A stretch of 41,742 nucleotides of DNA from Fuerstiella sp. (lineage in GTDB: Bacteria; Planctomycetota; Planctomycetia; Planctomycetales; Planctomycetaceae): the NCBI GenBank assembly GCA_029941865.1, contig JAPYTO010000029.1:1-41742 (forward strand). The letters run 5' to 3'. Shown here piece by piece: positions 19,801 to 40,165 of the stretch. A program made the translations under genes and the position numbers. The first letter of the stretch is position 1. Every line of letters begins with the position of its first letter. The notes below the pieces were generated by a model. It was not told the DNA's origin. It made no database searches and saw nothing but the letters and a program-made list of their open reading frames with translations.

Positions 19801-19979
19801 AATTCGGTTTCACGTGTTTCCGAGTCCAGTCCATGGCACGCAAAACATTTCTCTGCCAGCAAGGGGCGAATCTGCCGACCGAAGTTCACCTGTTCTTCCT
19901 GCGCTGCAATCGGAGAGACCGCCATTGAAGCGAGAATGAAGACGCACATTTCAGGCACGTAGTTGCGGGTGACTGTCAT
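16854..19979 (-). CDS. PSCyt1-PSCyt2-[discoidin-like insert]-PSD1 protein
   Basis: The start is set at the ATG at 19979 rather than further upstream: it has GAGGAA ahead and is followed by a proper signal ([15 protein letters not shown]). The protein has 1041 residues. PSCyt1 haem site CFACH is at 45-49 and [10 protein letters not shown] follows; DUF1549 has [26 protein letters not shown] and a second site [11 protein letters not shown]. Between DUF1549 and DUF1553, about residues 425-625, lies a beta-rich module beginning [14 protein letters not shown] and containing [16 protein letters not shown] and GRIRLAVT. The 1716-residue protein upstream carries the same module, but placed at its C-terminal end. 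DUF1553 then shows [18 protein letters not shown]. The PSD1 cysteine motif is [10 protein letters not shown]. It forms an operon with the following DUF1501 gene. Confidence 0.9.
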
Positions 19980-20093
19980 GGTTATGAATTCCTCGAACGT
20001 CTCAGTAGTTCTCTTTAAGATGTTGTTACGGGTGACAGTGGAACGCTCACAAACTGAGTGCGCCGATGCTGCCACAAATCCGGTTGTGTCACG

Positions 20094-21548: not shown

Positions 21549-21606
21549 GGTTTTTCTCCTGTTATTTTGCAGTTGTGTTCTTAGTGAAGAACGACGCGAG
21601 CGACTT

Positions 21607-24600: not shown

Positions 24601-26757
24601 AGCAACGGCCTGCCCGCCTCGATGGGGCACGGCGGCGGTTGCCTTGAGCAACAAAAGGCTGTCTTCCGGCGACGCCAGATTGATCCGCCGAGAAGCCAGT
24701 TCGTCGATATAGGCACGGGCTTCAAATATCGGATCGTTACCACGCATAGATACCTTCAACCCGCCCTTGCCGTTCTTCGACCCATGGCAGGAGCCGGAAT
24801 TACAGCCTGCTTTGCCAAAGACCGGATTTACGTCGCGGATCAGATCGACCTGAAAGTCAGGTTCGACCCCGGCAACTTCGACAGTGGCCGTTGCCTGCCT
24901 GTCACTTAGCGAAAACCGCACTTCGGCGCTGCCGTTCGCTCGCCCGCGAATCAAACCACCGCGAGACACATCGGCGACGTTCGACGATATTTCGATTCTG
25001 ACCAGACGCGTCACATCGACGACATTTCCTGATTCCATGTGTCCGGTCACAATGAATTGACCGGTGTCGAAGCGTTTGGCCAGCCTGATACCGGTTGGCT
25101 GTACGTCGATCGATGCAAGTTTTTCACCGGCGGACAGAAGTTCGGCGGCTGTCGTTTCTGCCGGCCGAACGAGGACTGACTCTGCTGTTGTTACAGGATC
25201 CTTCCTCTCTCCTGAATTCGCCATCGAGTCGATCGGCACGGGCACGAACTCAGCGATCAGCGAACCATCATCGGCGCCGATCAGCCGTACTGTTCCGTCC
25301 GTGCCAGCCGCCGCAACGACCCTGCCGTCACTGCTGAACGCCACGGCAAAGATGCCGGCATCTGTGAACTCTTTTTGAGCCAGAACCTGAACGCCCTTCG
25401 TCTGGTAGTCAGCAACCTTTTTCTTTTCCTCCGCACTTCGCTGAGCAACGCGTTTCTGCATGATTTCCAGAAGCTCCTTTGGCAATTCGGCGTCAAAGTC
25501 GTTGGCGTAGACCTTGACTTCACCGGTTCCGTCCACGCAACTTCCCGCCGCGATTCGTTTGCCGTCAGGACTGATCGCGACATCAAAAACTCGCCCTTTC
25601 AGACGGGGGAATCTTCGAATCAGATTGGCGTCGTCTCCGATGACTCGCTTCGACGTGCGGAACACGCGGTACAGTCTGGGTTCGCCGTCTGCTCCTCCAA
25701 CAACGATCTCGTCTCTGGTCGGATGCCGATCAATCGCCGCAATCCCGCCTTTCAATGCGCCCGGAGTGATCGAAGTGACGTTGTCGACAAATCGCTGCGT
25801 CGCAACCTCCGTCAGCTTGACAGAACGGTCGCGACCGACCGAAATCACGTGAGTGCCTTCGGCCGAAAAAATCGTGTCCAGAGGCCAGTCACTGTGAGCT
25901 CCCTGATACAGCACCTGTTCACCAGTGTCTGCATCGATCGCGCGGACTGTATCGTCCCCGCAGCCGAACGCAATCAGCTTCCCATCCGGCGACCAGCTCG
26001 CTCCATAAATCGTGTCATGAGTCACAGTATGCGACAGAGTCAGTGCGGGCTGTTCGATGTTTTCAACATCCCAGATCTGCACTTCGCCCATTCTGGCCGG
26101 TAGGCCGCCGGTCACGGCCAAACGCTTCCCATCGGGAGAAAATGCCACCGATTCGATCCGTTCCGACACGCCGACCAGGCGCGCCAGCAGGCCCGTTCCA
26201 TCGGGTTTGTGCAGCAGCACTTCGTGGTAAGCTGCGACAGCCAGCAGCTTTCCATCCGGTGAAAAGTCGAGGGACGTGATCACGGGGGGCATTGAGTAGT
26301 CGGGCGGATGCTGCATGTCATACTGTCGCCTGGCGTTCGCTGGCGTGTCATCTTTGGCCCCCTGTTCGATCCACTTTCGGATGAGAGTAATCTCCCTTTT
26401 GGTCAGCGGGCCCTTTTCCTTCGGCATTTCCGCTGCGCCGTCCACCGGGGTAATGAGTTCCAGCAGATAGCTGTCGTCCACTTTGCCGGCAGTGATTGCC
26501 GCGGCCTCACTCTCGCCACCGGCCAGTAGTCGTGCAAACGCCGTCATGACGTAATCGCCGTCAGCTTTGGCCGGCTGATGACAACCATGGCAATTGGTCT
26601 GCAGAATCGGGCGAACGTCGTTGTGATAACTCACGGCCCCCGTCGCAGCGTCGGCCGGGCCAGTCTCATCCGCAGCCTGACAGGGAAACGAAACCAGGAA
26701 AGCGACCAGAAGCGCAGTGGTGAGCGGGGCGTTCGACCAGGACGGCAGATGCAGCAT
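21607..26757 (-). CDS. Giant PSCyt1-WD40-BIG2-PSCyt-PSCyt2-PSD1 multidomain protein
   Basis: A 1716-residue secreted protein (signal [20 protein letters not shown] onward). Domain order: PSCyt1 with haem site CHGCH at 56-60; a WD40 beta-propeller at roughly 160-510, with repeated FSPDGKxLAV strands; a BIG2-like Ig domain near 580-635; a second cytochrome segment with the unusual Cx4CH site CNSGSCH near 650; another Ig-like domain; DUF1549 from about 850, with haem site [12 protein letters not shown]1553 from about 1090, with the CECERSGG motif near 1247; a coiled coil of about 80 residues; and a discoidin-like module starting TLTRQED near 1430. The end [19 protein letters not shown] is the normal DUF1553 terminus, so the coiled coil and module appear inserted inside DUF1553. 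The Rrf2 gene lies 144 bases upstream on the same strand. Confidence 0.9.
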
Positions 26758-26900
26758 GAGGAAGTCCTCATCAATCAGTTGATGTTTTCAGGTGGGTAGA
26801 TCAGGCTTCGTCAGCGATGCACTGTCGGCTGCGTTGTCTCAGGTGAAACAACGAGATCTCAGTTACATTTCAATGAGGGCCGGAAAAGCAATAGTGCCCT

Positions 26901-27371
26901 CTATTTTCGGCGACTCTTTGGTTTCTCTTTGCCGAGTGATGTTGATTCAACAACGCAAGGGAGCGTGCATAGCAAGCCGGGTTCCTGAAGCACTTCCTGA
27001 ATGGTTGTGTCATGTAGTGTTTTTTCTGCGACCGCCATGACGTTGTCGATCCGTCGATGCAGCGGACAGAGGCCGCTGTTATGGCCAGGTCGCCCCAGCG
27101 GGCAACTGTCGACCCGGTGAAACGCGTCCACTGCATTTACGACGTCCAGTATCGTCAGCTCGCCGGGGTCTAGCGCAAGCTTGAAGCCACCGTGCAGCCC
27201 GCGTTGAGATTGGACAATTCCAACGCGGCTGAGCCCCTGCATCACTTTTGCGAGGTAATCCGGCGGAGCAGCGATCTCACCGGCAAGTTCCGCAGTGGTG
27301 CACGGGTGCCCAATCTGATTGCCCAGAAATACAACAGCACGCAACGCGTACTCGGCAGTTTGAGAAAACAT
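26901..27371 (-). CDS. Rrf2-family transcriptional regulator
   Basis: A 156-residue regulator with a strong GGGGAG ribosome-binding site. The N-terminal winged helix is typical: MFSQTAEYALRAVVFL, recognition region CTTAELAGEIAAPPDYLAKVM, wing RGLHGGFKLA. The C-terminal half has Cys90 and Cys102 (SCPLGRPGHNSGLCPLH) plus Cys135 and Cys139. IscR, NsrR and RsrR ligate an Fe-S cluster with three Cys, or a mix with His and Glu; here two Cys and His97/His105 are the candidates, so cluster binding is plausible but unproven. A promoter with an abutting palindrome lies at 27470-27513 on the same strand, pointing to autoregulation. Divergent from a radical SAM gene. Confidence 0.92.
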   Translation of the reverse strand: MFSQTAEYALRAVVFLGNQIGHPCTTAELAGEIAAPPDYLAKVMQGLSRVGIVQSQRGLHGGFKLALDPGELTILDVVNAVDAFHRVDSCPLGRPGHNSGLCPLHRRIDNVMAVAEKTLHDTTIQEVLQEPGLLCTLPCVVESTSLGKEKPKSRRK

Positions 27372-27469: not shown

Positions 27470-27513
27470 TGGACATTGACATCCATAATACGGTCCGATA
27501 GGATGGTAGTCAA
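27470..27513 (-). promoter_or_regulatory. rrf2 promoter with overlapping palindromic operator (site a)
   Basis: On the minus strand, -35 TTGACT (27513-27508), a 17-base spacer and -10 TATTAT (27490-27485) are followed at once by the palindrome TGGATGTCAATGTCCA (27485-27470), whose first base is the last base of the -10. The geometry is the same at the octaheme cytochrome promoter (33893-33936). A protein bound here would block initiation, and the nearest regulator is the Rrf2 protein itself. Confidence 0.65.
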
Positions 27514-27534
27514 CCCGTCAGGCGAAAATCACAG

Positions 27535-27552
27535 TGCACAGTGCATTGTGCA
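27535..27552. promoter_or_regulatory. Palindrome upstream of the radical SAM gene
   Basis: TGCACA-GTGCAT-TGTGCA has perfect 6-base arms and a nearly symmetric centre, ending 54 bases before the radical SAM ATG. It differs from the TGGATGT-type sites, so a second regulator may read it. It could also be a transcript-leader hairpin. Confidence 0.4.
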
Positions 27553-27606
27553 TCGCTGTGCCCGACGGGACGATTCTTATCACTGCTGTTTCCCATACCG
27601 GAAAAG

Positions 27607-28737
27607 ATGATGCATTCTGCAGGTCTCAGCTACACGGCCGCCGACTTCAACGTACAACCACTGATGCTGTACTATGAGGTCACTCAGGCCTGCGATCTTG
27701 TCTGTCGACATTGCAGGGCCTCAGCTCAGGAGCAGTCATCGCCGGGTGAACTGACGACTGAACAGTCGAAAAAACTGATTGATCAGGCGTCCGAGTTTGT
27801 TCGACCGCCCATCCTTGTGATGACCGGCGGAGATCCGTTGAAACGACCGGATCTGTTCGAGCTGATCCGACATGCACGCGATGCGGGCCTGCAGGTAGCG
27901 TTGACTCCGTCGGCGACACCGCTGGCGACTCTGGACGCATTTTACCGTGCCAAAGAGGCGGGCGTCACTCGGTTGGGAATCAGCCTGGACGGTGCAGACG
28001 CGGTAACTCACGATGCGTTTCGCGGTTGGCAGGGCAGTTTCGCCCGCACGCTTGAAATGCTGGAACACGCTGGGCAGCTTGAGTTGCCTGTGCAGATTAA
28101 TACAAGTATCACTCGCCGCAACTTCCATCAGATCGACGACATCGCAGACCTGCTTTCCAATCGCGGGATCGCGATGTGGTCGGTGTTTTTTCTTGTTCCG
28201 GTCGGACGCGGAGTGGAAGAACAGCGAATTTCACCGGACGAGTATGAGATCGTTTTCGAGAAACTCTGGCAGCAGTCTCAGCGGCAGCCATTTGGAATCA
28301 AGACAACCGAAGCTCCTCACTATCGCCGCTTCGTGCTGCGGCGAAACGGCGATCCTCTGGCGGAACCCGCCGTTGCCACTCATGCTGCACGGGGAAAGAC
28401 GCACCGGGCTCCGCTGGGAGTTCGTGACGGACGTGGAGTCATGTTCGTCAGCCACACAGGTGAGATTTATCCGGCCGGGTTCCTGCCTCTGAAGTGCGGA
28501 CAGTTCCCTCAGGATTCCATTGTCGCCACGTACCAGGAACATCCCACCTTCGTAGCGCTGCGTGACGCAGAACAGTTGAAGGGGAAATGCGGAACGTGTG
28601 ACTACAACGACATCTGTGGTGGTAGTCGCAGCCGAGCGTTCGCAGTCACCGGCGATCCTCTGCAGGAGGAACCTGACTGCGTTTATGACTCCCGCAATGA
28701 CGCCCGGACCGTCATGCTGGAGATCACACATGATTAG
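27607..28737 (+). CDS. Radical SAM/SPASM protein, TIGR04053-like
   Basis: A 376-residue enzyme from the ATG at 27607; an upstream GTG at 27541 would add unrelated sequence overlapping a palindrome and is rejected. The radical SAM Fe-S motif is CDLVCRHC (Cys29, 33, 36), followed by the SAM-binding MTGGDPLKRPD and LGISLDGAD strands. A C-terminal SPASM-type cluster region has CGTCDYNDICGG and a late Cys in EEPDC. This matches the TIGR04053 family, related to the haem-synthesis enzymes AhbD and NirJ. It may modify a tetrapyrrole or a peptide; no precursor peptide gene is apparent nearby. Divergent from rrf2, and so possibly controlled by an Fe-S sensor. The stop codon overlaps the start of the dispersed intergenic element. 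Confidence 0.88.
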   Translation: MMHSAGLSYTAADFNVQPLMLYYEVTQACDLVCRHCRASAQEQSSPGELTTEQSKKLIDQASEFVRPPILVMTGGDPLKRPDLFELIRHARDAGLQVALTPSATPLATLDAFYRAKEAGVTRLGISLDGADAVTHDAFRGWQGSFARTLEMLEHAGQLELPVQINTSITRRNFHQIDDIADLLSNRGIAMWSVFFLVPVGRGVEEQRISPDEYEIVFEKLWQQSQRQPFGIKTTEAPHYRRFVLRRNGDPLAEPAVATHAARGKTHRAPLGVRDGRGVMFVSHTGEIYPAGFLPLKCGQFPQDSIVATYQEHPTFVALRDAEQLKGKCGTCDYNDICGGSRSRAFAVTGDPLQEEPDCVYDSRNDARTVMLEITHD

Positions 28738-28840
28738 AGCAGTTTACTTATTGTCGAAGACGATACTGGCTCGTGGGAGTAACGAAACTGCTGTCGAAAT
28801 GCGTTCTTCGCGGCCACAAGTCAGCGTGAAACGCTGTCGC
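28733..28840 (+). repeat. Dispersed intergenic element, copy A
   Basis: Begins at the radical SAM stop codon (ATTAGAGCAGTTTAC). AGCAGTTT (28738-28745) pairs perfectly with AAACTGCT (28785-28792). CTGGCTCGTGGGAG lies between the arms, and TTCGCGGCCACAAGT leads into the hairpin CAGCGT-GAA-ACGCTG (28822-28836). It occupies most of the 177-base gap to the next gene. Confidence 0.75.
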
Positions 28841-28914
28841 CTTGCCTGCCGGAATACGGTTTCCGTGGACTTCGGCCAGCAGACTGTTTCACTGACACCT
28901 TTCGGAGACAGGAG

Positions 28915-30186
28915 ATGAGCTCACCAGCCACCGAAACACCGGTTGATGTTGTCGTCATTGGTGGCGGTCCGGCAGGGGCGGCGCTGGCCACGCTGCTGGC
29001 GAAGCAGCAGCACTCCTGCGTGCTTCTTGAAAGCGCCACGTTTCCGCGATATCACATCGGAGAGTCGCTGATTCCGCATACGTACGCGACACTCGACCGG
29101 CTGGGGTTGCTGGAGAAACTGAAGGCGTCGGCGTTTCCTGTCAAACACAGCGTGCGGTTCGTGTCGCCGTCCGGAACGGACACAGCGCCATTCTATTTTT
29201 CGGAGACGATCAGTGGCGAACGCGCTCAGACCTGGCAGGTTGAACGATCGGAATTCGACCGTATGTGCCTGGACAACGCCATCGAATCCGGTGTTGACGT
29301 TCGGTCGCCGGTACGGGCCCGGGAAGTTTGTTTCGAAGGTGATCGGGCCGTTGGAGTTCTGACAGAGAACGCCGAAGGGAAATCAGACTTCATTCCGGCG
29401 CGGGTTGTGGTGGATGCGTCAGGACGAGTCTCACTGATTGGTTCACAACGCGGCCTTAAGATTGACGTTCCTGGTCTGAACAAAGCGTCCATCTGGGCTT
29501 ATTTTCGAGGAGGCCGCCGGCGTGAAGGGATCGACGCGGGTGAGACGACCGTATTTATGATCCCGCAGCGCGGCTGGTTCTGGTACATTCCACTACCGGA
29601 CGATGTTGTCAGTGTCGGCGTCGTTGCCGACCCGGAATACCTGTTCGATGAAACGAAAAAGTTCGACCCGGTACTGCAACGCGAAATCGAGCGCTGTGTC
29701 GGTGTGTCCGAATGTCTGGAGGACGCGGTTCAGGTTGGACCGGCGCACGGCCTGCGGCGACTGGCGTACTACAACCGACAGGTCGCTGGTGATGGTTGGG
29801 TGATGGTCGGTGATGCCGCCGGATTCCTGGACCCCATCTACTCGTCCGGCCTGTTTCTGGCTTTGGCATCCGGGGAGCTGGCTGCGGACTGCATTCACGA
29901 CGCCCTGCTCGCCAACGATACCTCCGTCGAACGACTTGGGAAATTCTCCGACACACTGTGGGACGGCATTGAAGTCATTCGCCGGCTGATTCATGCCTTC
30001 TACGATCCGGCCTTCAGTTTTCATAAATTCGACGAACAGTTCCCCGAACAGAGGAGTGCTCTGATCGATTGTCTGGTCGGCGATGTCGTCGGTCGGGATA
30101 TGACTTCCTTCCTTGATTGTTTGGCCAGGATGAGTCCCCCGCCGGCGCCCCTCTTTTCAGAAAATCCGGAAGCCGTACATACGTAA
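28915..30186 (+). CDS. FAD-dependent oxidoreductase, flavin halogenase/geranylgeranyl-reductase-like
   Basis: A 423-residue flavoprotein of the group that includes tryptophan-type halogenases and geranylgeranyl reductases; GGAG precedes the ATG. The dinucleotide motif is VVVIGGGPAGAALA. PRYHIGESLIP follows, then the FAD-pocket motif VGDAAGFLDPIYSSG. RGWFWYIPL fits the WxWxIP halogenase motif. The halogenase Lys that guides hypohalous acid (a GGxxxK motif near the N-terminus) is not evident, so a halogenase function is doubtful. Reduction or oxidation of a lipid-like or polyketide intermediate is more likely (inference). It lies between two repeat copies and downstream of the radical SAM gene on the same strand. 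Confidence 0.82.
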   Translation: MSSPATETPVDVVVIGGGPAGAALATLLAKQQHSCVLLESATFPRYHIGESLIPHTYATLDRLGLLEKLKASAFPVKHSVRFVSPSGTDTAPFYFSETISGERAQTWQVERSEFDRMCLDNAIESGVDVRSPVRAREVCFEGDRAVGVLTENAEGKSDFIPARVVVDASGRVSLIGSQRGLKIDVPGLNKASIWAYFRGGRRREGIDAGETTVFMIPQRGWFWYIPLPDDVVSVGVVADPEYLFDETKKFDPVLQREIERCVGVSECLEDAVQVGPAHGLRRLAYYNRQVAGDGWVMVGDAAGFLDPIYSSGLFLALASGELAADCIHDALLANDTSVERLGKFSDTLWDGIEVIRRLIHAFYDPAFSFHKFDEQFPEQRSALIDCLVGDVVGRDMTSFLDCLARMSPPPAPLFSENPEAVHT

Positions 30187-30227
30187 CCGGTGCCTCAGCG
30201 CCCCGGCAACTTCACTGATTAGCCGTT

Positions 30228-30323
30228 TACTTTAGGTCGTGGACAACACTGGCTCGCGGGAGTCACGAAACGGCTGTTGCAAAGCGTTGTTCGTGGCCAC
30301 ATGTCAGCGTGAAACGCTGTAGC
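30228..30323 (+). repeat. Dispersed intergenic element, copy B
   Basis: Same order of landmarks as copy A but shifted 42 bases past the stop of the flavoprotein gene. The outer arms are AGCCGTTT (30231-30238) and AAACGGCT (30268-30275). Copy A has AGCAGTTT and AAACTGCT at these places, so one base pair changed on both strands and pairing was kept. The 3' hairpin CAGCGT-GAA-ACGCTG is at 30305-30319. Confidence 0.75.
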
Positions 30324-30766
30324 GATGCCCGACTGTGTGTTCAATCAGAACAGGCAGGCCAGTCAGGTTGTGCGCTTTGATCCGGGCAGGATCGCGATCC
30401 TTGTCGATGAGTCCCTTTTGGATGCTGTCTTATTGCGTGCCACAGTCTTACGGCAGCGATACGCCGTGGTGACCTGAGGCAATTACTGTCATCAGTTGCG
30501 TGGTCTTTTTCGCCGACGTTGCGAATGTTCTGTGGTGAAGCCAACGTCGGCACCGCGATCGTTCCACCTGTCTGAGGCACCTTCATGTTTTGCGATTTGG
30601 GAACATAAGAAAGACGTGCGTCGAGGTGACAAAGGTGTGACAAAAGTTTTGCGTTAGGGTGACTGAGTTGTCTGGCGGTCCGCACTATAAATGGATGTTG
30701 CCATGACTGCTCTACCCAATCCCTTTGTCGCAGGCTCCAGGGCCTGGCCAATACGAAAAAAAAGCA
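30324..30766. other. Long leader region of the desaturase gene
   Basis: No coding frame is convincing. Two spaced TGACAAA copies lie near 30627 and 30638. A TATAAA at 30686-30691 is immediately followed by TGGATGT (30692-30698), the left half of the palindrome seen at the three Rrf2-type sites; the right half is poor (CAT only) and no -35 fits. A promoter here is likely, regulation by the same factor only possible. Confidence 0.35.
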
Positions 30767-31714
30767 ATGACTGCACAACTGAGAAACACTACTGTCGCTG
30801 CTGCACCCAGTGCGACAGCCCGATCCGCGACCGGCGAAGGCCCGGAGCGTCAGGAGAATACCCACGTGTACGATATGTTTCGGCGTGGCCACCTGCACTG
30901 GCGAAACATCGACGGGATCGTGCTGGCATGGATGGTAACGATGCACGTCGGGTGCATTGCCGCTTTGTTCTTTGTGACGTGGCAGGCAGTAGCGGTCGCG
31001 GTTTTTCTGCACTGGATGACATGCAGTATCGGAATCTGTCTGGGGTATCATCGGCATCTGTCACATGGCTCATTACGGCTTGCGGCACCCGTGCGGTTTT
31101 TCGTGACGCTTTGCGGAATACTGGCCGGGCAGGGAACACCACTCATGTGGTCGGCGACCCATCGAGTCCACCACGGTCGTTCCGACCAGGAGGGAGATCC
31201 GCATTCACCGACGGATGGAGTTTGGTGGTCGCACGTGCTGTGGATCTTCGTCCGACATGGAGCGGAGCAACGCAATACGCTCTATCAAAAGTATATCCCT
31301 GATCTTGTGCACGATCGCCTGCTGCGGTTCTTCGAACGGACCTACATGCTGTGGCTGGTCGGTTTTGCGGTCGCGATGTACATGCTCGGTGGCTGGCCAT
31401 TGTTGTTGTGGACGGTGTGCGTTCGGATTGTGGTGGGATACCACACAACCTGGCTGATCAACTCGGCCTCCCATATCTGGGGTTACCGCAATTACGACAC
31501 TGCCGACGACTCAAGGAACTTATGGTGGGCCGGTCTGCTGGCTTATGGCGAAGGGTGGCACAACAATCACCACGCCTGGCCTCGTATGGCCTGCTACGGC
31601 CACCGCTGGTGGGAATTCGACATTACCTGGCAGTCGATAAAGTTCCTGAGATTGCTGCGTCTGGCCACAAACGTCGATGATCGAATACCGACGGACCGCA
31701 GGGTGTCGTCCTGA
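30767..31714 (+). CDS. Acyl-CoA (delta-9 type) fatty acid desaturase
   Basis: An integral-membrane di-iron desaturase of 315 residues from the ATG at 30767; an in-frame TTG at 30725 is less likely because the sequence before MTAQLRN is poor. The three His boxes are complete: HRHLSH, HRVHH and HNNHH (in GEGWHNNHHAWP), with the extra NSASH ligand site in WLINSASHIWG. Hydrophobic spans flank the first box (IVLAWMVTMHVGCIAALFF and the segment after it) and the region before NSASH. It introduces a double bond into a saturated acyl chain using oxygen and an electron donor, adjusting membrane fluidity. The first 35 residues are Ala/Thr-rich and disordered-looking. Confidence 0.92.
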   Translation: MTAQLRNTTVAAAPSATARSATGEGPERQENTHVYDMFRRGHLHWRNIDGIVLAWMVTMHVGCIAALFFVTWQAVAVAVFLHWMTCSIGICLGYHRHLSHGSLRLAAPVRFFVTLCGILAGQGTPLMWSATHRVHHGRSDQEGDPHSPTDGVWWSHVLWIFVRHGAEQRNTLYQKYIPDLVHDRLLRFFERTYMLWLVGFAVAMYMLGGWPLLLWTVCVRIVVGYHTTWLINSASHIWGYRNYDTADDSRNLWWAGLLAYGEGWHNNHHAWPRMACYGHRWWEFDITWQSIKFLRLLRLATNVDDRIPTDRRVSS

Positions 31715-31749
31715 ACTGAAGTTGCCCGACAGTGTTCGCACCAGCCGTT

Positions 31750-31804
31750 GTAGGGTCCGCTGTGCGGACGGGTAACAGACAGTGGTCCGCCCAGCGGACC
31801 CTAC
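31750..31804. repeat. Large inverted repeat downstream of the desaturase gene
   Basis: Two 20-base arms (GTAGGGTCCGCTGTGCGGAC and its near-exact reverse complement, one mismatch) flank a 15-base loop. It lies 36 bases past the desaturase stop. A partial copy of the arm, GTTGTAGGGTCCGG, occurs at 36472-36485 after the octaheme cytochrome gene, again at a gene's 3' end. It resembles TAGGGTCCGC palindromes that I recall as common in planctomycete genomes. It may work as a terminator. The 268 bases beyond it (31805-32072) show no supported gene. Confidence 0.7.
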
Positions 31805-32072
31805 GGAATCAAACGTGAGAGCATGCAGCACAAATTGCAGAGGGCGGCGGGACCACGCCAGCAAGTCCTGAATCAGACGGAAATTCCGTATCGTGACGAT
31901 CTGATGGGGCATCCGTACATTCGGGCCTGCGGACGGTTACCCGGTCGCAGGCTCGAACAGTTGGAGAAGTGGATGTGTCAGATTCTGTCCGGTTGGACGT
32001 TTACGCATCATCTGACCGGCTTCGACATTCAGTTTGCCTTCGCTCATCGAATCCATGTCTGCGGTGCATCAT

Positions 32073-33401
32073 TCACACCAGCTCGCTGATGACGCCTGCC
32101 TCAACCAAACGCTGCGGACGCCCTGCCGGATCATTGACCCTCTGCGAATCCGGGTTCACGCCCAGGTTGGAATAGAGCGTTGCCATGATCTCCTGGAAGC
32201 TGACAGGGCGACTTTCGGCAATCTCGCCCAAACGGTTTGTCGCCCCAATGACCTGACCGTTGCGCATGCCGCCGCCAGCCAGCAGTGCGCAGCTGACTTT
32301 CGGCCAGTGGTCGCGGCCCGCCTTGTCATTGATCTTCGGGCTGCGACCGAATTCACCCCATGCGATCACGGTCACGTCATCCAGCAGACCGCGCTGTTCC
32401 AGATCTTCAATCAGCGCGCTGAGACACTGATCAAGTTTCGCCCCATGGTCACGGACAAGGTCAAAATTCGCTCCATGACTGTCCCAGCGACCGAATGTCA
32501 GCGTCACGCAGCGAACTCCCGCTTCAACAAGACGGCGGGCGACCAGTAACTGACGATTGTCTGTGGGCGCACCATCGTACTGGTACTGAAATGGCTTGCC
32601 GTCGCCGTATCGAGCCAGCACCGCCGGGTCTTCGTCGGAAAGGTCCAGCGCATTCAGCAGACGACTGCTGGTCAGCACGTTGAAGGCCTGCTGCGTAAAC
32701 ACATCCATACCTTCCATCAGACGGCTTGCGTCGATGTCTCGCCGCAACAGATCAAATCCGGCTAACAGCTTCCTGCGATCATCGAGCCGATCAGTGGTGA
32801 CACCGTTCAGCGTCATGTTGGCCATGCCGGGACCGTCCGGAGTAAATGCTCCGTAGGCAGGTCCCAGAAAACCGCAGGAGCCAGGATCCGACCACGGTAC
32901 GTGCTGCGTCTTTTTGGCGAGTCCGACAAACACCGGCACGGATTTATCGACCGGCCCCAGCACATTTGCCGCGACAGCTCCGACACTGGGCCGACCTCCC
33001 AGGAATGCCATGTCGCGTTCCGGCCAGCCCGTCTGGCACTGCCACGCGTCATGGCGTCCGGCTGAGCCAACGACTGACCTGATCACGGAGCAATGCTCCA
33101 TCACTTGTGCGATCTTTGGAAACACTTCGCAGATTTCAATCCCTGGCACGCTGGTGCTGATCGGGCTGAACTCACCACGAATTCCGGACGGAGCGTCAGT
33201 CTTGACGTCCCACATGTCCTGGTGAGGTGGCCCGCCTCCCAGAAAAATGTTGATCACCGACTTGTGCGATCCGGACGAAGATTGAGCCTCGGCACGATGC
33301 ACGTCCGCAAGTGTCAGCGCACTGCCAGCAAAGCCCAGGGCTCCAATCTGCAGGAACCCTCGTCGTGGCACGCGGCCTGAATCACCAAAGACTGTCAGCA
33401 T
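32073..33401 (-). CDS. Orphan DUF1501 protein, Tat-exported
   Basis: A 442-residue protein from the ATG at 33401, which is followed at once by a Tat signal (SGRVPRRGFLQIGALGFAGS). A longer frame to 33497 only adds unrelated residues. Motifs: LGGGPPHQDMWDVK (residues 55-68), WGEFGRSPKIND and GRDHWPKVSCALLAGGGMRNG. It is of the Trp/GRDHWP subtype, like the gene at 20094. No PSCyt/PSD1 partner adjoins it: its upstream neighbour is a small membrane protein and its downstream side is convergent with the desaturase. It therefore acts alone or with a partner encoded elsewhere. Confidence 0.88.
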   Translation of the reverse strand: MLTVFGDSGRVPRRGFLQIGALGFAGSALTLADVHRAEAQSSSGSHKSVINIFLGGGPPHQDMWDVKTDAPSGIRGEFSPISTSVPGIEICEVFPKIAQVMEHCSVIRSVVGSAGRHDAWQCQTGWPERDMAFLGGRPSVGAVAANVLGPVDKSVPVFVGLAKKTQHVPWSDPGSCGFLGPAYGAFTPDGPGMANMTLNGVTTDRLDDRRKLLAGFDLLRRDIDASRLMEGMDVFTQQAFNVLTSSRLLNALDLSDEDPAVLARYGDGKPFQYQYDGAPTDNRQLLVARRLVEAGVRCVTLTFGRWDSHGANFDLVRDHGAKLDQCLSALIEDLEQRGLLDDVTVIAWGEFGRSPKINDKAGRDHWPKVSCALLAGGGMRNGQVIGATNRLGEIAESRPVSFQEIMATLYSNLGVNPDSQRVNDPAGRPQRLVEAGVISELV

Positions 33402-33562
33402 GACCTGGTTCTCGCGTTGAAGTTCGGATTCTAAGAAGGACAGGGCCAAAGGATACGTATGCCGGGTACGTTTCTTACCGGCACACCCCGATGGCACTGT
33501 TTCAGTGGTTCATGACTCCGTCGCTCAGGAATGTAACTATCACCGGTACCGGTCTTTGTTCA

Positions 33563-33802
33563 TTAACCAACCGTTCGAAACGTCCACCAGATTACAAACA
33601 GCATGATGAATAATGTGTACAGAAACAGGCTGACGAGAATCTTTGCCACGGCCCGTCCGGCCGCCTGGTCCTCATCACGGAAGTGCTGAACCTCAAGCTC
33701 ACTGAATAGAGGGGGCTCGATCGCAGCAGACGCTGTTCCCTGCACCTTGTCCTGTTCGGGCCGTGTTTCGAGAAGTGGGTCAGCGAGTTCATGTACATTC
33801 AT
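33563..33802 (-). CDS. Small single-pass membrane protein, unknown
   Basis: A 79-residue frame from the ATG at 33802 (MNVHELADPL). An acidic N-terminal half of about 50 residues is followed by one strongly hydrophobic helix, ILVSLFLYTLFIMLFVIWW, and a short tail. A GGAG lies about 11 bases ahead of the start. An alternative ATG at 33847 would add 15 residues. It is divergent from the octaheme cytochrome gene and shares its regulatory region, including the palindromic site b. The topology resembles small subunits that accompany respiratory complexes, but no family is recognised. Confidence 0.6.
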   Translation of the reverse strand: MNVHELADPLLETRPEQDKVQGTASAAIEPPLFSELEVQHFRDEDQAAGRAVAKILVSLFLYTLFIMLFVIWWTFRTVG

Positions 33803-33892
33803 CGTCAACAATCTCCGACTGTCAGGCGTGCGGCCCTGAAATCGCAACAGGAAAAAGGCAGTCCAGGCTGAGCACTCGGACGGCCATGATCA

Positions 33893-33936
33893 TTGACATT
33901 AATCGTAATCAGCGGTAATGTGGATGTCAACATCCA
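33893..33936 (+). promoter_or_regulatory. Promoter with abutting palindromic operator (site b)
   Basis: A consensus -35 TTGACA (33893-33898), a 17-base spacer and -10 TAATGT (33916-33921) are followed by the perfect palindrome TGGATGTCAACATCCA (33921-33936), sharing one base with the -10. The layout equals that at rrf2. It points toward the octaheme cytochrome gene 247 bases downstream. Confidence 0.65.
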
Positions 33937-34052
33937 TATATCCGTATGTGTCGCTTCGGTGCGTCCGGATTCGTCAGATACCGTGGTTGCATTCTTCCTG
34001 TTACCATTTGTGGTGATGACCAGCAGCCAGCTGTTGACGCTGGAATACGGCA

Positions 34053-34160
34053 TTACAGCGTATCACGCTGACTTGTGGCCGCGAAAAACGTTTTCCGGCC
34101 TGCTATGTGTGCTTCCCACGAGTCCAAAGGAGCCACGTGTTTTCGAAAACTGCTGTAATG
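34053..34160 (-). repeat. Dispersed intergenic element, copy D (inverted)
   Basis: Read on the minus strand it runs ATTACAGCAGTTTTCG, then GGACTCGTGGGAAG, then TTCGCGGCCACAAGT, then the hairpin CAGCGT-GAT-ACGCTG (34070-34056), matching copy A from end to end. The outer arm pairing seen in A and B is lost here. It lies between promoter b and the ATG of the octaheme cytochrome, and so would be in that transcript's leader, in reverse sense. Confidence 0.65.
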
Positions 34161-34182
34161 ATTTGAGGTCCGGCGAACAGAC

Positions 34183-36429
34183 ATGACTGACCGTAGTAAA
34201 CGTAAGACTTCAGTCACGTCTCGGTGGAAAACGCTGTTCTGGATGCTGGGGGCGGCGATTCTGCTGTCGGCGTGGCCGATGTTTGACTGGTGGAGCGTAT
34301 TGCCCGAAGGTCGTACCGCTAATTATGTTGGCCGCACGACATGTGCCTCATGCCACCAGCGACAGGTCGAGCAATGGACGGGATCCGACCACGACCGCGC
34401 GATGGATCTCGCAACTCCTGAATTCGTCCTGGGAGACTTTGAGAACACTCAGCTTGAGCATCACGGTGTCACGTCCAGAATGTCGCACCGCGATGATAAG
34501 TTCTTCGTCGAAACGGAAGGGCCGGATGGGAAGACGGCTGAATTCCAGGTGGACTATGTATTTGGTTACCAGCCATTGCAGCAATATCTCACGGAACTGG
34601 ATCGCGGACACATTCAGGTGCTGCCGGTAACGTGGGATACAGAGAAGCGGGAATGGTTCTACGCCAACCCCGATCCCCCGTTTGGTCCCGACGATCCTTT
34701 GCACTGGACTGGTTCTGCTCAGAACTGGAATCACATGTGTGCCGACTGTCACACGACGAACTTTGCAAAGGACTTTGACGTTCCTTCAGATACCTACCAT
34801 TCCTCCTGGTCTGAAATGGACGTGAGTTGTGAGGCCTGTCACGGCCCCGGCAGCATCCATGTTGAGCTGGCCGATTCCAAGTCGTTTTTCTGGGATCGTC
34901 GATACGGACATGGGCTCGCAGATTTGGACAGCCAGAACTCAACGACCCAACTGGAGGCCTGCGCTCCGTGCCATGCCCATCGGCAACGCATTCATCCCGG
35001 CTTCAAGGCGGGAGACCGTTTCTATGACCACTACGGACTTTCGGTTCTGGAAGATCATCTGTATCACGACGACGGACAGATTGATGAAGAAGTGTATGTG
35101 TTCGGTTCGTTTACGCAGAGCCTGATGTATCGCAAAGGCGTCCGCTGCTCGGACTGCCACGATCCGCATACCACCCGTATCCGGTTTCAGGGCAACAAGC
35201 TGTGCACGCAGTGCCACCTGGCACCGAAGTATGACAGCCCGCTGCACCATCATCATCGTGCGGAAACAACCGGAGCGCAGTGCGTGGAATGCCACATGCC
35301 GGAAAAAACTTACATGGTCGTCGATCCCCGCCGCGACCACAGTCTGCGGATCCCTCGGCCCGACCTGACTGTAAAGATCGGAACGCCGAATGCATGCAAT
35401 GGCTGCCACACAAAGCCGAAAGAAACTCCCGCATGGGCCGCTGCCAGAATCGAGGCATGGTATGGCCCGAAACGACGAGATGATCCTCACTATGGCGAAA
35501 TACTTCATGCCGGTCATCGTGGCGATCCTGCCGCTGGCGACCTGCTTGCCGATCTTGCCAAATCACGCGATGTCGGGCCCATTGTTCGTGCAACGGCAGT
35601 CTCGCTGCTCGGGACACGTTATTCGCTGGAAGCCAGCGACAAGACGATCGAGCGTGCTCTCAGACACCGTGACACTGCGGTTCGGGCTGCGGCCGTTGCC
35701 ACACTGGCAGGGCGGCCACTCAACTCGCGTCAGGATGCTGGCAGGCTGCGTGAACTGCTGGTGCCAAAGTTGACAGACCGTGCCCGTTTCGTGCGGACCG
35801 AAGCGGCGCGCGTCGCATCAGCGTATCCATCGGAACTGTTCGATCGGGATGAGCGAAAGGATCTCACGAAAGCCATTAAAGAATACCGCGCAGGGTTGAT
35901 GATGAATTCCGACCAGGCTGGTGCTCACTTAAGTCTCGGAATACTTGAGATGAATCTTGGCGACGTGGATTCCGCTGTCAAATCCTATCGCAACGCGATG
36001 CGTCTGGATCCCGCTGTGGTCGGGCCGCGGTCGAATCTGGCTCAGCTGCTGACCCAACTGGGCCAGGACGACGAAGCCCGTCAGCTTCAGCTGGAAGAAG
36101 TAGAGCTTCTTAAACGTGATGCTGCACTGCTGCCTGAGCACGCTGTTCTGCAGTACCGTCTGGGGTTGCTGCAGTATCTTCTGGGCCGGGAGCAGGAAGC
36201 GGAAAAGGCTCTGGCAGCGGCCGCTCAGCTTGAGCCTCAGTCCGCCGACTTTCAGATGGCTCTGACATTGCTGTACGAGAAACACAAACGATGGCCCGAA
36301 GCCCAGCGTGCGGTCGACCGACTGATTGCGATCCAGCCGGACAATCCCATGTTTCAGCAGATTCGCGTCAACATTCAACGTGCTGCCGCCTCTTCAGCGG
36401 TCAATCCGTCGGCACCGTCAAAGGATTGA
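34183..36429 (+). CDS. Octaheme c-type cytochrome with HEAT-like and TPR repeats
   Basis: A 748-residue protein anchored or exported by an N-terminal hydrophobic segment (residues 17-34, no clear cleavage site). Eight CxxCH haem sites begin at residues 54, 186, 216, 260, 322, 341, 367 and 405. The first lies in TCASCHQRQVEQW, as in cytochrome c554-type multihaem proteins. Extra His (LHHHHRAE) may serve as axial ligands. Residues about 430-550 look like HEAT repeats (VRATAVSLLG, VRAAAVATLA, VRTEAARVAS), and about 560-720 are TPRs (GAHLSLGILEMNLGDVDSA and copies). It should move electrons outside the cytoplasm, with the repeats binding a partner. The electron acceptor is unknown; no CX15CH or Lys-type site of sulfite or nitrite reductases is seen. 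It is controlled by promoter/operator b. Confidence 0.88.
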   Translation: MTDRSKRKTSVTSRWKTLFWMLGAAILLSAWPMFDWWSVLPEGRTANYVGRTTCASCHQRQVEQWTGSDHDRAMDLATPEFVLGDFENTQLEHHGVTSRMSHRDDKFFVETEGPDGKTAEFQVDYVFGYQPLQQYLTELDRGHIQVLPVTWDTEKREWFYANPDPPFGPDDPLHWTGSAQNWNHMCADCHTTNFAKDFDVPSDTYHSSWSEMDVSCEACHGPGSIHVELADSKSFFWDRRYGHGLADLDSQNSTTQLEACAPCHAHRQRIHPGFKAGDRFYDHYGLSVLEDHLYHDDGQIDEEVYVFGSFTQSLMYRKGVRCSDCHDPHTTRIRFQGNKLCTQCHLAPKYDSPLHHHHRAETTGAQCVECHMPEKTYMVVDPRRDHSLRIPRPDLTVKIGTPNACNGCHTKPKETPAWAAARIEAWYGPKRRDDPHYGEILHAGHRGDPAAGDLLADLAKSRDVGPIVRATAVSLLGTRYSLEASDKTIERALRHRDTAVRAAAVATLAGRPLNSRQDAGRLRELLVPKLTDRARFVRTEAARVASAYPSELFDRDERKDLTKAIKEYRAGLMMNSDQAGAHLSLGILEMNLGDVDSAVKSYRNAMRLDPAVVGPRSNLAQLLTQLGQDDEARQLQLEEVELLKRDAALLPEHAVLQYRLGLLQYLLGREQEAEKALAAAAQLEPQSADFQMALTLLYEKHKRWPEAQRAVDRLIAIQPDNPMFQQIRVNIQRAAASSAVNPSAPSKD

Positions 36430-36496
36430 GCGACAGGAAAGTCCGTTGCGGAGTCACGTCCGATCGCCTGAGTTGTAGGGTCCGGTTACTTTGACT

Positions 36497-36838
36497 TTAG
36501 TTTGAAGGTGCGAATGGTGGCGCAGTCGTCTTCGGTGTGGCAGGACCAGTAACAGCGACTCTGTCACCGAATCGTCGTTGACGTTCCAGCCGCTGTAGGA
36601 TGGGATCCATCATTTCCAGTTCCGTGTAGTACATCGCGCTGGGATCAATTCCGCGGTCGTCCAGCCAGTTCAAATGTTCCTCCATGGCGGGACGTCGCGC
36701 AACCCACGGCAGCATGACGCACCAGACGATGGCAATTACGCCCATCGACACTCCGAGCCGGACGCCGCCTGAGTTCTGCTGATCGGCTGGACCGTTGATA
36801 GGTACGTGACCGATTGTACCTGACGAAAAACTTCGCAT
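36497..36838 (-). CDS. Small membrane protein translationally coupled to a YeiH-type transporter
   Basis: A 113-residue protein with one hydrophobic helix (LGVSMGVIAIVWCVMLPWVA, about residues 28-47) and a soluble tail rich in Glu and Arg (ELEMMDPILQRLERQRR). Its ATG overlaps the stop of the transporter gene as TAATG, a typical coupling arrangement. An in-frame ATG at 36934 lies inside the transporter and is rejected. No family is recognised. The overlap suggests a subunit or accessory of the transporter. Confidence 0.7.
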   Translation of the reverse strand: MRSFSSGTIGHVPINGPADQQNSGGVRLGVSMGVIAIVWCVMLPWVARRPAMEEHLNWLDDRGIDPSAMYYTELEMMDPILQRLERQRRFGDRVAVTGPATPKTTAPPFAPSN

Positions 36839-38259
36839 TACGGTGCTGCCTGTTCGACAAGGTCTCTGAAGACGACATGAAACGCCAGCCACGCCATCAG
36901 AAGGGTCAGGCAGAGGTTGAGCGACTGCCCGCATACGTACAGGATGAGAGGTTTACCGCCACGCATCTGTGGTAACAGTTCGCGAAAGTTTGTGTCCAGA
37001 CCGATGCTGACGAATGCCAGACAGAAGAACCATCCGCGAAGCGTCTTGGTCGACCCCTTGATCGTGGCGTCAACCAGTTCCGGCCCTCCGGCGAGCGTTC
37101 CGTGGAGGATGGAAAAAATGATGGACGCCAGAACGAAACCAATGACAAACTTTGGAAAACGATTCCAGATCTCCATCAGGCGCGGACGATCAGCAGACGG
37201 ATCGCGTTCGACGACGGTGGTCCAGTATGTTGCGACGCAGAACGCAGTGACTCCGATGAGAATGTTCTGAATCATTTTCACGGTGGCAGCAACTTCCATG
37301 GCACGGTCGCCCAGAACAGCGCCCGCTGCAGCGACGGCTCCCGTGGAATCGATTGTTCCTCCCAGCCATGCTCCTCCGAGGATTTCATCCATGCCCACCG
37401 CTTTGATGATCGCAGGCAGTACGATCATCATGATGACCGTGAAGGACAGCGACATTCCGATGGCCAGCGAGAGTTCTTCCTTTTTCGCTTTGCAGGCGGA
37501 CGCCGTGGCGATCGCCGCCGACACACCGCACACGGACATATCCGCGGAGATCACCATGTTGAGCGAACGGGACTCCATCTTCAGGACCTTCTGTCCGAAA
37601 ATGTAGGTGCTGATCAGGACGACCGGCGTGACGACCCAGGCGACCATGACACCCGGAGCTCCCAACGCCAGCAGCCGTGTCATCAGAACCTCCGCCCCCA
37701 GCAGGACCAGTCCCGTCTTGATATAGAATTCCGTCACCACCGCCGGTTTGAGGAATTCCGGTGTTCTCACCGTGTTACTGATAATCAGCCCGACCATCAG
37801 AGCCCACAGCGCATATTCCAGGTTATATGCTTTGACGACGCTCTGTGCCGCCATGACATAGGCCAGCGTCGCGAGCAGAAAAACAACAGGAAACGCCTTC
37901 AGGAATTTCGCGCCGGACAGGCCACGAATCTGAATTGCGATCGTAAACAGCACGGCGATCACAATGAAAACGCCCAGTATTCCCTGAACTGCCGTGGCCG
38001 GTTTGTAGAACGAGTCAAGCGGGCTGTTATCCCATTTATTCGGTTTGGCGAGCCACGGTTTGAGAGGGCTGGAGACTTCGACGACCTCACCTTCCGCGAT
38101 TTTCTGTGTGAAATCGTCTGGCCGATTACACCAAACAGCCAGAAACGCCACCACGATCAGCAGCGTGCCGCACCAGATTGCCCACCAGTCTTCTGATGTT
38201 CGCATCTGAGTCAGTGTACCAGGCTGAGCCGCCGCGTCTTGCGGTGAGTCTGACGTCAT
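36838..38259 (-). CDS. YeiH/UPF0324-family putative sulfate exporter
   Basis: A 473-residue integral membrane protein with AAGGAA 9 bases before its ATG. About ten hydrophobic helices are visible, preceded by a soluble loop (residues 50-85) after the first. Family hallmarks: the [11 protein letters not shown] segment, [15 protein letters not shown], then [22 protein letters not shown], and [21 protein letters not shown]. YeiH proteins are annotated as sulfate exporters on indirect evidence; some are linked to taurine or sulfite metabolism. The protein is about 100 residues longer than Escherichia coli YeiH because of the N-terminal helix and loop. Coupled to the small membrane protein downstream. 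Confidence 0.88.
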
Positions 38260-38449
38260 CGGGGTTGGTTCCTTGTCGGTTTACTTTGCGTTCTGTCACA
38301 GCATTCTCCCATGATTCTGATGTGCACACGTCTTTGTGGCAAGCATCCGCAGCGGGCGAACGGACAGGGAGCCTCTCGCGAAACCGGTCGGCACCCCGAT
38401 ATTCCTGTCGGGAATGCCAGGAACACGCTATTTGAACGGCTGGCAAAAT

Positions 38450-38505
38450 GGCCTGCGATGCAGGCCACCGCAGGAATCCTGACGTGCTGACAATGGCATG
38501 TCAGC
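38450..38505 (-). terminator. Two adjacent hairpins after the four-helix membrane protein gene
   Basis: GCTGACA/TGTCAGC (38486-38505, six-base loop) begins within 10 bases of the stop of the minus-strand gene. GGCCTGC/GCAGGCC (38450-38466, three-base loop) follows, with ATTTTGCC after it on the minus strand. Both stems are perfect over 7 bp. They look like a tandem terminator ahead of the YeiH operon, though the T-run is weak. The stretch 38260-38449 shows no gene. Confidence 0.5.
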
Positions 38506-38510
38506 GGTTG

Positions 38511-39146
38511 TCAGGTTGGCAGTCCGCGTTCTGCCCGGATACGGGCAACCTCGGCGAGGACCGATTCAACGATCGTCGTGTTTCTTGAGATCGCAATGAA
38601 CTCAGAGAAATACGTAAGCAGATTGACAATGATGGTGGTGATCGCGGTGAAGAAATGGAATTGCGATCCCTTCAATCCCATGGTGCCGTCCAGGGACATC
38701 GGCGTGGCCGGGTCGGCCAGCGCTCCAAGCGCGCCTGTCGTGATAAGCAGAACAAAGCACACCATCATGCCCCACACAACTCGGTACTTGATTCGCTGGT
38801 TCGTGTTGTAGAACGACTCATCCAGTGCATAGGCGTTACTTGTTTCTTCAAGCCAGCGACCTGTACCCATGAAATACGTCAGTGTGATGGCATGGACCAG
38901 CATGGCAAAGCTGAGCGTTCCCATGCCGACCAGCATGTGGGTGCTGATTCCTGTCTGCGTTTGCGGGTTCGGACTGCTGACGTCCCCAATGTTGAGTCCC
39001 AGAGTGGCGGTTACAACGAAGCACAGGATCGTAACCACGGCAAGTGTCAGAATAATGCGTTTCACGAGTTCTTCCACCGGCATACGTGTGAACAGAGCTT
39101 TATCACCTTCGGGAACCGGGCGGAGGATAATTTCCACAGCGGACAA
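38511..39146 (-). CDS. Four-helix integral membrane protein, unknown
   Basis: About 211 residues with four hydrophobic helices: LTLAVVTILCFVVTATLGL, then a segment from MLVGMGTLSFAMLVHAITL, VWGMMVCFVLLITTGALGAL and FHFFTAITTIIVNLLTYFS. Several His lie in or at the helices (THML, LVHAI, FHFF) and could bind b-haem, but the spacing is not a known motif. The start is uncertain: the TTG at 39146 has no good ribosome-binding site and the frame is open further upstream without an ATG. It shares its upstream region with the chimeric cytochrome gene and palindromic site c. Not assigned to a family. Confidence 0.6.
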   Translation of the reverse strand: MSAVEIILRPVPEGDKALFTRMPVEELVKRIILTLAVVTILCFVVTATLGLNIGDVSSPNPQTQTGISTHMLVGMGTLSFAMLVHAITLTYFMGTGRWLEETSNAYALDESFYNTNQRIKYRVVWGMMVCFVLLITTGALGALADPATPMSLDGTMGLKGSQFHFFTAITTIIVNLLTYFSEFIAISRNTTIVESVLAEVARIRAERGLPT

Positions 39147-39195
39147 CGCAACTGACTTACAAAGAAGATTCTGCTGATCGATGTTTCGGGAATTC

Positions 39196-39229
39196 GAGAG
39201 AAGGAATCTGAGAGAAGGAATCTGAGAGA
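39196..39229. repeat. 14-bp tandem repeat, 2.4 copies
   Basis: GAGAGAAGGAATCT occurs twice head to tail (39196-39209 and 39210-39223), followed by a partial GAGAGA. It lies in the divergent spacer between the four-helix protein and the chimeric gene. Confidence 0.7.
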
Positions 39230-39268
39230 TTTGAGAATGGAATAGCCACGCACAGAATGCTACGTTAC

Positions 39269-39290
39269 TATAACTGGATGTCCATATCCA
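39269..39290 (+). promoter_or_regulatory. Palindromic operator with adjacent -10 (site c)
   Basis: TGGATGTCCATATCCA (39275-39290) has arms with one mismatch and the same 16-base length as sites a and b. TATAAC (39269-39274) abuts it on the plus strand, as the -10 boxes do at a and b, but no good -35 lies 16-18 bases upstream. The regulated gene could be the chimeric gene (+) or the four-helix membrane protein (-). Confidence 0.5.
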
Positions 39291-39385: not shown

Positions 39386-40165
39386 ATGATTCGGTTGATT
39401 TTGCCAACACTGATCATGATCGTTCTTGCCCCGGGGCTGCTGTGCGCTGATCAGCCTTTCGACTTCAATCGCGATATTCGACCGATTCTCTCCGCACGCT
39501 GCTTCGCCTGTCACGGAACGGATGAGAAGACTCGTGAAGCCGGTCTTCGACTTGATATTTCGGACGGAGCAACGTTGCAGCTGGACAGTGGCGATACCGC
39601 GGTGATTCCCGGCGACAGCGGCAGCAGCGCTTTGATCGCGCGTGTGGCAACCGACGACGGGGATCTGGTTATCGCTCTGTTTGTCTACTTCGGCGCCCAC
39701 CAGGAGGCGCTACAGGTCAGCATGAAAGCGACAATGAGCGGCGTTCGGGTCAGAGAGGCAATGATCCGACATTTTCATACACTGCAGGACAATGACAGTC
39801 TTGGAACCGCCGCTGGCGAGTTACTTGCCGGCGATCAACAGGACTTTCCTGTGACTTGTTCCGGCGAATTCGTTGGAATGCTGACTCGACAGGATCTTTT
39901 GACAGCAATCGCCGCCGGACAGTTGAATGTGCCCGTCGGTCAGGTAATGCACAGTAACTGCCAGGCAGTTAGTGATACCGACATGCTGGAAGCAGTAATG
40001 ACTGCGATGGCAGAACAGGACTGTCTATCAACGCCAGTCATTCGAAATGGAGAAATTGTCGGCGTGGTAAATCTCGACAACATTCAGGAGTGGCTGGCCA
40101 TTCAGGCGGCGTTGAGCCCCACAGGTCGCGCTGGAAATTCGTCTGCATTGGCCAATTCCGTTTGA
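39386..40165 (+). CDS. Chimera: PSCyt1 cytochrome head fused to a CBS-pair tail of a site-2 protease
   Basis: A 259-residue frame. Residues 1-20 are a signal peptide ([20 protein letters not shown]) and residues 25-90 are PSCyt1 with haem site [19 protein letters not shown]. The usual MPP ligand loop is missing: after [12 protein letters not shown] the sequence changes at about residue 93 to [17 protein letters not shown]. That is the cytoplasmic tail entry of a membrane site-2 protease (M50, Rip3-like), followed by two CBS motifs ([14 protein letters not shown] and [13 protein letters not shown]). The reading frame continues across the junction near base 39660. A signal peptide would send CBS domains outside the cytoplasm, where adenosyl ligands are scarce. 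It is either a rearrangement relic or a new fusion; the intact frame and operator c leave expression open. Confidence 0.75.

Follow-up and report, generated by a model that had tools for sequence, protein, structure and literature searches.

A conserved palindrome as the predicted operator of an Rrf2-type regulator in a Fuerstiella genome

Closest described systems and the locus

RsrR of Streptomyces venezuelae, an Rrf2 protein with a [2Fe-2S] cluster, is described as redox-responsive rather than responsive to nitric oxide (NO), and as divergently autoregulated from sites between rsrR and its partner gene (PMC5015018). The NO-sensing Rrf2 protein NsrR, whose regulon includes Hmp, Hcp, RIC/DnrN and NorB, has the published operator gATGyAT-N5-ATrCATc (PMC1274295). 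In this study, an rrf2 gene and three 16-bp palindromes were analysed in a 41,742-nucleotide stretch of Fuerstiella sp. DNA (assembly GCA_029941865.1, contig JAPYTO010000029.1, positions 1 to 41,742; referred to as the window). The palindromes are probably operators of the Rrf2 protein encoded beside them. A search of the open-access PubMed Central (PMC) literature found no Rrf2 regulon or operator described in planctomycetes. A preliminary description of the same DNA, made from the sequence, had proposed the regulon. Other genomes, contigs and loci are denoted by G, C and L numbers. The sites and the genes next to them are as follows; genes were called with a codon-score script or as plain open frames and not with a standard caller.

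26901-27371, minus strand: rrf2, 156 residues, PF02082, with C90, H97, C102 and H105
27470-27485, minus strand: predicted operator 1, TGGATGTCAATGTCCA, between rrf2 and the radical SAM gene
27607-28737, plus strand: radical SAM/SPASM gene, TIGR04053 (AhbD/NirJ-like), 450.8 bits against a cut-off of 395; start taken from the codon-score gene caller
33563-33802, minus strand: small membrane protein gene, 79 residues, divergent, putative membrane helix assigned by eye
33921-33936, plus strand: predicted operator 2, TGGATGTCAACATCCA, between the small membrane protein and octaheme genes
34183-36429, plus strand: octaheme (eight CXXCH) cytochrome c with TPR repeats, 748 residues
38511-39146, minus strand: four-helix membrane protein gene (so named in the preliminary description; helix count putative), 211 residues
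39275-39290, plus strand: predicted operator 3, TGGATGTCCATATCCA, between the four-helix and PSCyt1-CBS genes
39386-40165, plus strand: PSCyt1-CBS fusion gene, 259 residues, two CBS domains; the chimeric cytochrome of the preliminary description

The regulator protein

The rrf2 product is a member of the Rrf2 superfamily (PF02082, 91.3 bits against a cut-off of 30; TIGR00738, 96 bits against 73.3). The models for NsrR, IscR, RirA, CymR and HypR all scored far under their cut-offs with this protein (NsrR 35.9 against 182; IscR 36.2 against 207.55 and 21.4 against 275), and by the tests made it lies outside both NsrR and RsrR. Its AlphaFold model (mean predicted local distance difference test score, pLDDT, 84.1) matched the folds of RsrR, CymR, IscR and NsrR, with RsrR at rank 1 (36% identity over 134 columns); RsrR was also the nearest solved structure by sequence (4.1e-12).

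For the phylogenetic tree and for the signature count, 143 distinct homologues were chosen by their similarity to the window protein. C90, H97, C102 and H105 were all present in 142 of them (the exception is L098), E7 in 138 and C135 in 130. Position 33 was occupied by T (131), I (7), S (4) or A (1), and hence never by His. His33 of RsrR, which is changed in the H33A variant named in a structure title and which we take to be a ligand, is thus missing in the window regulator, and the C-H-C-H signature is found instead. Two of the NsrR cysteines align with C90 and C102, whereas the middle one falls on G96, beside H97. IscR resembles the window protein in the similar spacing of Cys, Cys and the final His, but its second Cys is replaced by His in the window regulator; the ligand numbers of IscR and RsrR used in these comparisons, and the IscR alignment, are those that we assume to be correct.

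The predicted operator core is a 7-2-7 palindrome, often extended by its flanks as judged by eye, compared with the published 11-3-11 form for RsrR, and it is unlike the NsrR operator. The gene context in relatives is that of NO defence, whereas that of RsrR is NAD(P)H metabolism. NsrR is resembled in the repressor-type operator position and in the kinds of genes that accompany the regulator or its operator in relatives, but the predicted targets in the window itself are not classic NsrR genes. By analogy, the regulator would work like NsrR or RsrR.

Rarity and conservation of the palindromes

The preliminary description had reported palindromes at 27485-27470 (minus strand), 33921-33936 and 39275-39290, and all three are present. 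The exact pattern TGGATGTNNAYRTCCA gave four strand matches in the window, which correspond to these three sites, and none of 100 dinucleotide shuffles of the window reached this count. When the whole genome was scanned (8.04 Mb in 612 contigs, 90.5% complete), only the same three sites were matched, all within 11.8 kb around rrf2, and the reversed pattern gave no match even with one mismatch allowed. One-mismatch places elsewhere in the genome numbered 12, of which ten overlap a long open frame by a crude test and two are intergenic.

A 16-bp matrix was trained by iteration on the regions upstream of 70 Rrf2 homologues, mostly the strongest of 105 matches in 58 genomes including that of the window. 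Scores above 10 were obtained for 30 of the 70 regions (reversed control, 1 of 70); because the matrix was iterated on these loci, the training counts are not independent. As held-out loci, found by peptide patterns that do not cover C90, H97, C102 or H105, the best 80 of 572 confirmed loci were taken; seven training duplicates were dropped, leaving 73 loci related by descent. Conservation ahead of other rrf2 genes, which the preliminary description had named as a check, was confirmed here, with 39 of the 73 regions scoring above 12 (reversed control, 0 of 73) and 44 scoring above 10 (reversed control, 1 of 73).

The operator reads TGGATGTCAANRTCCA, with the consensus [TA]GGATGTCAANRTCC[AT]. 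Its core GGATGTCAANRTCC was matched 59 times in the 58 genomes, against one match for the reversed pattern, and 15 of the 59 matches lie ahead of rrf2 genes, including that of the window. Upon classification of 52 core matches, 24 were intergenic, among them L193, which on re-reading by hand is an rrf2 upstream site. In the tree, the window protein belongs to a clade of seven with support 100/100, and every member of this clade has a site scoring at least 10.0 (window 21.5, G022 20.1, L243 14.8, L242 14.5, L240 13.9, L241 11.6, L239 10.0). The G022 site (L169:5917) lies beyond the first 150 bp upstream and was found on widening the search.

Further palindromes were observed in the course of these scans. 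The two intergenic one-mismatch places may mark further targets: L007 (G000:C43:24190) stands ahead of a PAS-domain gene, and L013/L238 (G000:C354:5536) has a weakly Tll0287-like gene on one side (22.7 bits, under the cut-off of 24.1) and a PSCyt1/PSCyt2 gene on the other. The same form of palindrome, though weaker (score 13.7), recurs at 2085-2100 as AGGACCTTTATGTCCT, 56 bp ahead of a gene named ketosynthase-like by eye. Members of a sister Rrf2 clade carry another palindrome upstream of rrf2, similar to TACACGTCAAGGTGTA (L106, L107, L109, L110, L113); several are divergent to a flavohaemoglobin-type gene (named by eye), and two paralogues of this kind, C89 and C464, are present in the Fuerstiella genome. 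Gemmata-type rrf2 genes linked to protoglobin share a variant near TGGACTCCAAATTCCA (L276, L289, L308, L318).

Promoter geometry

The following boxes were located at the three sites.

27485-27513, minus strand: rrf2 promoter; TTGACT (27513-27508), 17 bases, TATTAT (27490-27485), ending on operator 1
27476-27504, plus strand: candidate divergent promoter; TTGACA inside operator 1, 17 bases, TAGGAT
33893-33921, plus strand: octaheme gene promoter; TTGACA (33893-33898), 17 bases, TAATGT (33916-33921), ending on operator 2
33902-33930, minus strand: candidate divergent promoter; TTGACA inside operator 2, 17 bases, TACGAT
39257-39284, minus strand: candidate four-helix gene promoter; TGGACA inside operator 3, 16 bases, TAGCAT

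These coordinates agree with the earlier claim that, at sites 1 and 2, the palindrome shares its first base with the last base of a -10 box lying 17 bases from its -35 box. At site 3, TATAAC (39269-39274) abuts the palindrome, again as described, and no TTGACA-like box was found 17 bases before it on that strand. Ahead of the radical SAM, small membrane protein and four-helix genes, the three opposite-strand pairs scored higher than any other promoter pair in the sequence examined. Since a -35-like hexamer lies on the opposite strand in each window palindrome, a single operator may act on both genes of a divergent pair.

Over 52 sites scoring above 14, taken from the training and held-out sets and oriented toward rrf2, similarity to TATAAT peaked at the one-base overlap with the operator (3.08 of 6; over 80 offsets, mean 1.68, standard deviation 0.47), so that the operator is placed just past the -10 box in what appears to be a repressor-type position. 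The arrangement TTGAC(A/T)-17-(A/T)ATTAT ending on the operator occurs in the window and in L239, L240, L241 and L243. On the reverse strand, the -10 signal over the 52 sites was weak (2.33 against a mean of 1.67, standard deviation 0.47), and the two-sided promoter reading for this reason draws chiefly on the three sites of the window and on G007, in which the site 3 counterpart TGGACATTGACATCCA is intact at the matching place, beside a four-helix remnant (C7), with the promoter TTGACA-17-TAGCAT.

Nitric oxide genes near the operator in relatives

In relatives, the genes divergent from rrf2 include those for protoglobin (PF11563) and for haem proteins of the Tll0287-like kind (PF11845). A divergent qNOR gene (PF22085 and PF00115) is found across the operator in L245 and L281, and an Hcp gene is divergent from rrf2 in L261; in L245 a RIC gene (TIGR03652) lies behind that for qNOR. 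Away from rrf2, the operator was found ahead of Hmp, a flavohaemoglobin-type gene with globin, flavin adenine dinucleotide (FAD) and NAD domains, in G008 (L063), and ahead of RIC and a qNOR-like piece in G025 (L064). A protoglobin, RIC, qNOR, Hcp, Hmp or hemerythrin gene was present at 20 of the 39 held-out operator loci. At 85 comparison loci without rrf2 such a gene was present in two (L063 and L064), in both with the motif match directly ahead of it; these loci are smaller, with a total of 265 kb compared with about 552 kb in the set of 73, all were fetched for a motif-like match, and a few places occur twice. The probes for NO genes were themselves drawn from loci of the present analysis (L064 for RIC, L245 for qNOR, L261 for Hcp and L258 for hemerythrin).

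The vicinity of the operator to protoglobin, Hcp, RIC, qNOR and Hmp genes in relatives points to a repressor that would sense NO or redox stress. By this gene context, the redox response suggested in the preliminary description might be narrowed to NO or nitrosative stress.

Proposed mechanism and points against it

The regulon proposed for the Rrf2 protein and the palindromes is well supported at the sequence level, by rarity, conservation, promoter geometry, the C-H-C-H signature and the NO genes nearby in relatives. There is a good probability that the Rrf2 protein encoded next to the palindrome uses it as operator and that a dimer with an NO- or redox-sensitive metal site represses the divergent promoters. 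With the same operator ahead of related regulator genes and of some NO-defence genes in other planctomycetes, the system looks like a real stress-response circuit. The Rrf2 dimer would carry a metal site, probably an Fe-S cluster, with ligands drawn from C90, H97, C102 and H105. It would sit just downstream of one -10 box and over the -35 box of the divergent promoter, and both promoters would be repressed. NO or a related redox stress would damage the cluster, upon which the protein would leave the DNA. The genes then switched on would be rrf2 itself, those for the radical SAM enzyme and for the octaheme cytochrome with its small membrane partner, the four-helix gene and possibly the PSCyt1-CBS gene. 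We infer binding, repression, the Fe-S cluster, the NO signal and the functions of the target genes from sequence. The predicted local set of radical SAM, octaheme cytochrome and membrane proteins in the Fuerstiella genome appears to be new.

A number of results weigh against this explanation. Concerning the operator, 34 of the 73 held-out loci scored 12 or less, and the sites of L239, L240 and L241 (10.0 to 13.9) differ at the second base. A loose pattern with three mismatches was not enriched in the window (18 matches against 13.6 expected). The preliminary description had taken equal frequency in coding regions, or want of conservation ahead of orthologous rrf2 genes, as grounds for rejection; the conservation was found, but rarity in coding regions was not, since 28 of the 52 classified core matches are coding. 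The exact promoter spacing was lacking in L242 and G022. No site was found ahead of the octaheme gene relatives in G022, G030 and G027, and the four-helix relatives searched had none that was convincing a short distance upstream, the remnant on G007:C7 excepted. Concerning the signal, the nearest fold is that of the redox-responsive RsrR, which counts against NO. The operator did not clearly predict NO neighbours among rrf2 loci, these being present at 20 of 39 loci with the operator and 13 of 34 without. In the Fuerstiella genome itself, no operator was found ahead of the RIC gene (C32) or the hcp-protoglobin genes (C20), and qNOR was searched for and not found; NO is for this reason derived from other species.

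A wider and considerably less certain proposal is that this is a widespread planctomycete Rrf2 family in which a two-Cys two-His (Rieske-like) cluster site senses NO, in which the operator contains a built-in -35 box so that one dimer shuts back-to-back promoters, and which has here been given a new NO or redox pathway of octaheme-TPR cytochrome, radical SAM and membrane proteins. The regulon proposed here, if true, would provide a predicted operator, would add a new ligand signature to those of Fe-S sensors, and would link uncharacterised cytochrome and membrane genes to NO or redox stress.

Alternative explanations

The balance is even on whether the PSCyt1-CBS gene is a target or a recent neighbour, with site 3 serving the four-helix gene only. 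The DNA block shared with the same-genus genome G001 stops at window position 39248, before the PSCyt1-CBS gene, which had no counterpart within the 14 kb at the start of the syntenic G001 contig and lies outside the conserved block. In G007 the site and the four-helix remnant occur without this gene, and no TTGACA-like -35 box is present on its side of site 3; TATAAC nevertheless abuts the site in nearly the usual place. Of the two targets that the preliminary description had assigned to site 3, the four-helix membrane protein gene is the conserved partner, and the chimeric cytochrome gene is not conserved there.

Contig 88 of G001 (L168) keeps the small membrane protein gene (71% identity), the transporter gene and the four-helix gene (82%), and its octaheme gene is shortened and in pieces. 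Operator 2 is found at the aligned position as AGGATGTCAAGGTCTG, with one arm altered; the TTGACA box and the spacing are kept, and the -10 box is CATTAA. Operator 3 is decayed in G001. G001 has three Rrf2 matches and G007 has two, and all of them fall outside the clade of the window protein. From these two genomes, with the octaheme gene in pieces, operator 3 decayed and only a four-helix remnant in G007, it would seem that the regulator was lost and that its targets then decayed.

A signal other than NO, sensed by the same regulator at the same operator, is a minority possibility that deserves serious attention: cellular redox state, through reversible oxidation of a [2Fe-2S] cluster as in RsrR, or Fe-S status. 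RsrR is nearest by both sequence and fold and is likewise divergent to its target with sites in between (PMC5015018); the predicted targets in the window encode a radical SAM enzyme and cytochromes and are not classic NO genes. The NO genes adjoining the operator and rrf2 in relatives (qNOR, Hcp, RIC, Hmp, protoglobin) argue against it, as does the lack of a His corresponding to His33 in the 143 homologues.

Another Rrf2 paralogue of the same genome (C23, C32, C89 or C464) is unlikely to bind the sites, alone or jointly with the window protein. The genome has six Rrf2 matches, one of them partial, and the C23 paralogue has a related palindrome, GGATGTTCGTATCC, upstream. The C89 and C464 paralogues, however, carry a different palindrome (TACACGTCAAGGTATA and TACACGTAAAGGTGTA), every exact site lies at the window locus, and the rrf2 genes of the window's own clade are preceded by a conserved related site. 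Chance, or an unrelated factor, is a very improbable source of the palindromes: the loose pattern is not enriched, but the exact sites are matched by no shuffle and occur nowhere else in the genome, and the held-out conservation contradicts it.

Predicted target genes and neighbouring genes

The radical SAM gene is divergent to rrf2 in G022 as in the window, and its relatives in L259 and L275 have an operator site of their own. When compared with solved structures, the octaheme protein matched mostly through its TPR part, with a few short multiheme matches in addition, and the four-helix protein, which has a paralogue at C16 of the same genome, gave a single match (E 0.21). In the PSCyt1-CBS protein, the stretch before the CBS part presumably resembles the tail of a membrane metalloprotease.

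Downstream of rrf2, these genes follow on the same strand:

21607-26757, minus strand: PSCyt1/WD40/PSCyt2-PSD1 gene, separated from rrf2 by a 143-bp gap
20094-21548, minus strand: DUF1501 gene
16854-20075, minus strand: further gene
15350-16816, minus strand: DUF1501 gene

Together with rrf2 they form a possible operon (15350-27371). Similar co-directional PSCyt/PSD1-type and DUF1501-type genes follow rrf2 in the clade members L239, L240 and L241, and such unexplained planctomycete genes may in this way be tied to an Rrf2 sensor. No literature joining DUF1501, DUF1553 and planctomycetes was found in open PMC texts. Profile matches also identified genes for an FAD enzyme, a desaturase and a YeiH-type transporter nearby in the window, and one window membrane protein had a weak b561-like match under the cut-off.

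A 444-residue protein with a single CXXCH is encoded at 13047-14381 on the plus strand. It belongs to a conserved family but matched no Pfam or NCBIfam profile, and its model (mean pLDDT 72.4) gave no fold match at E <0.001. Relatives of this protein recur beside rrf2 genes of the present kind, and two of the relatives, in L202 (55% identity) and L222 (48%), have the operator ahead of their genes.

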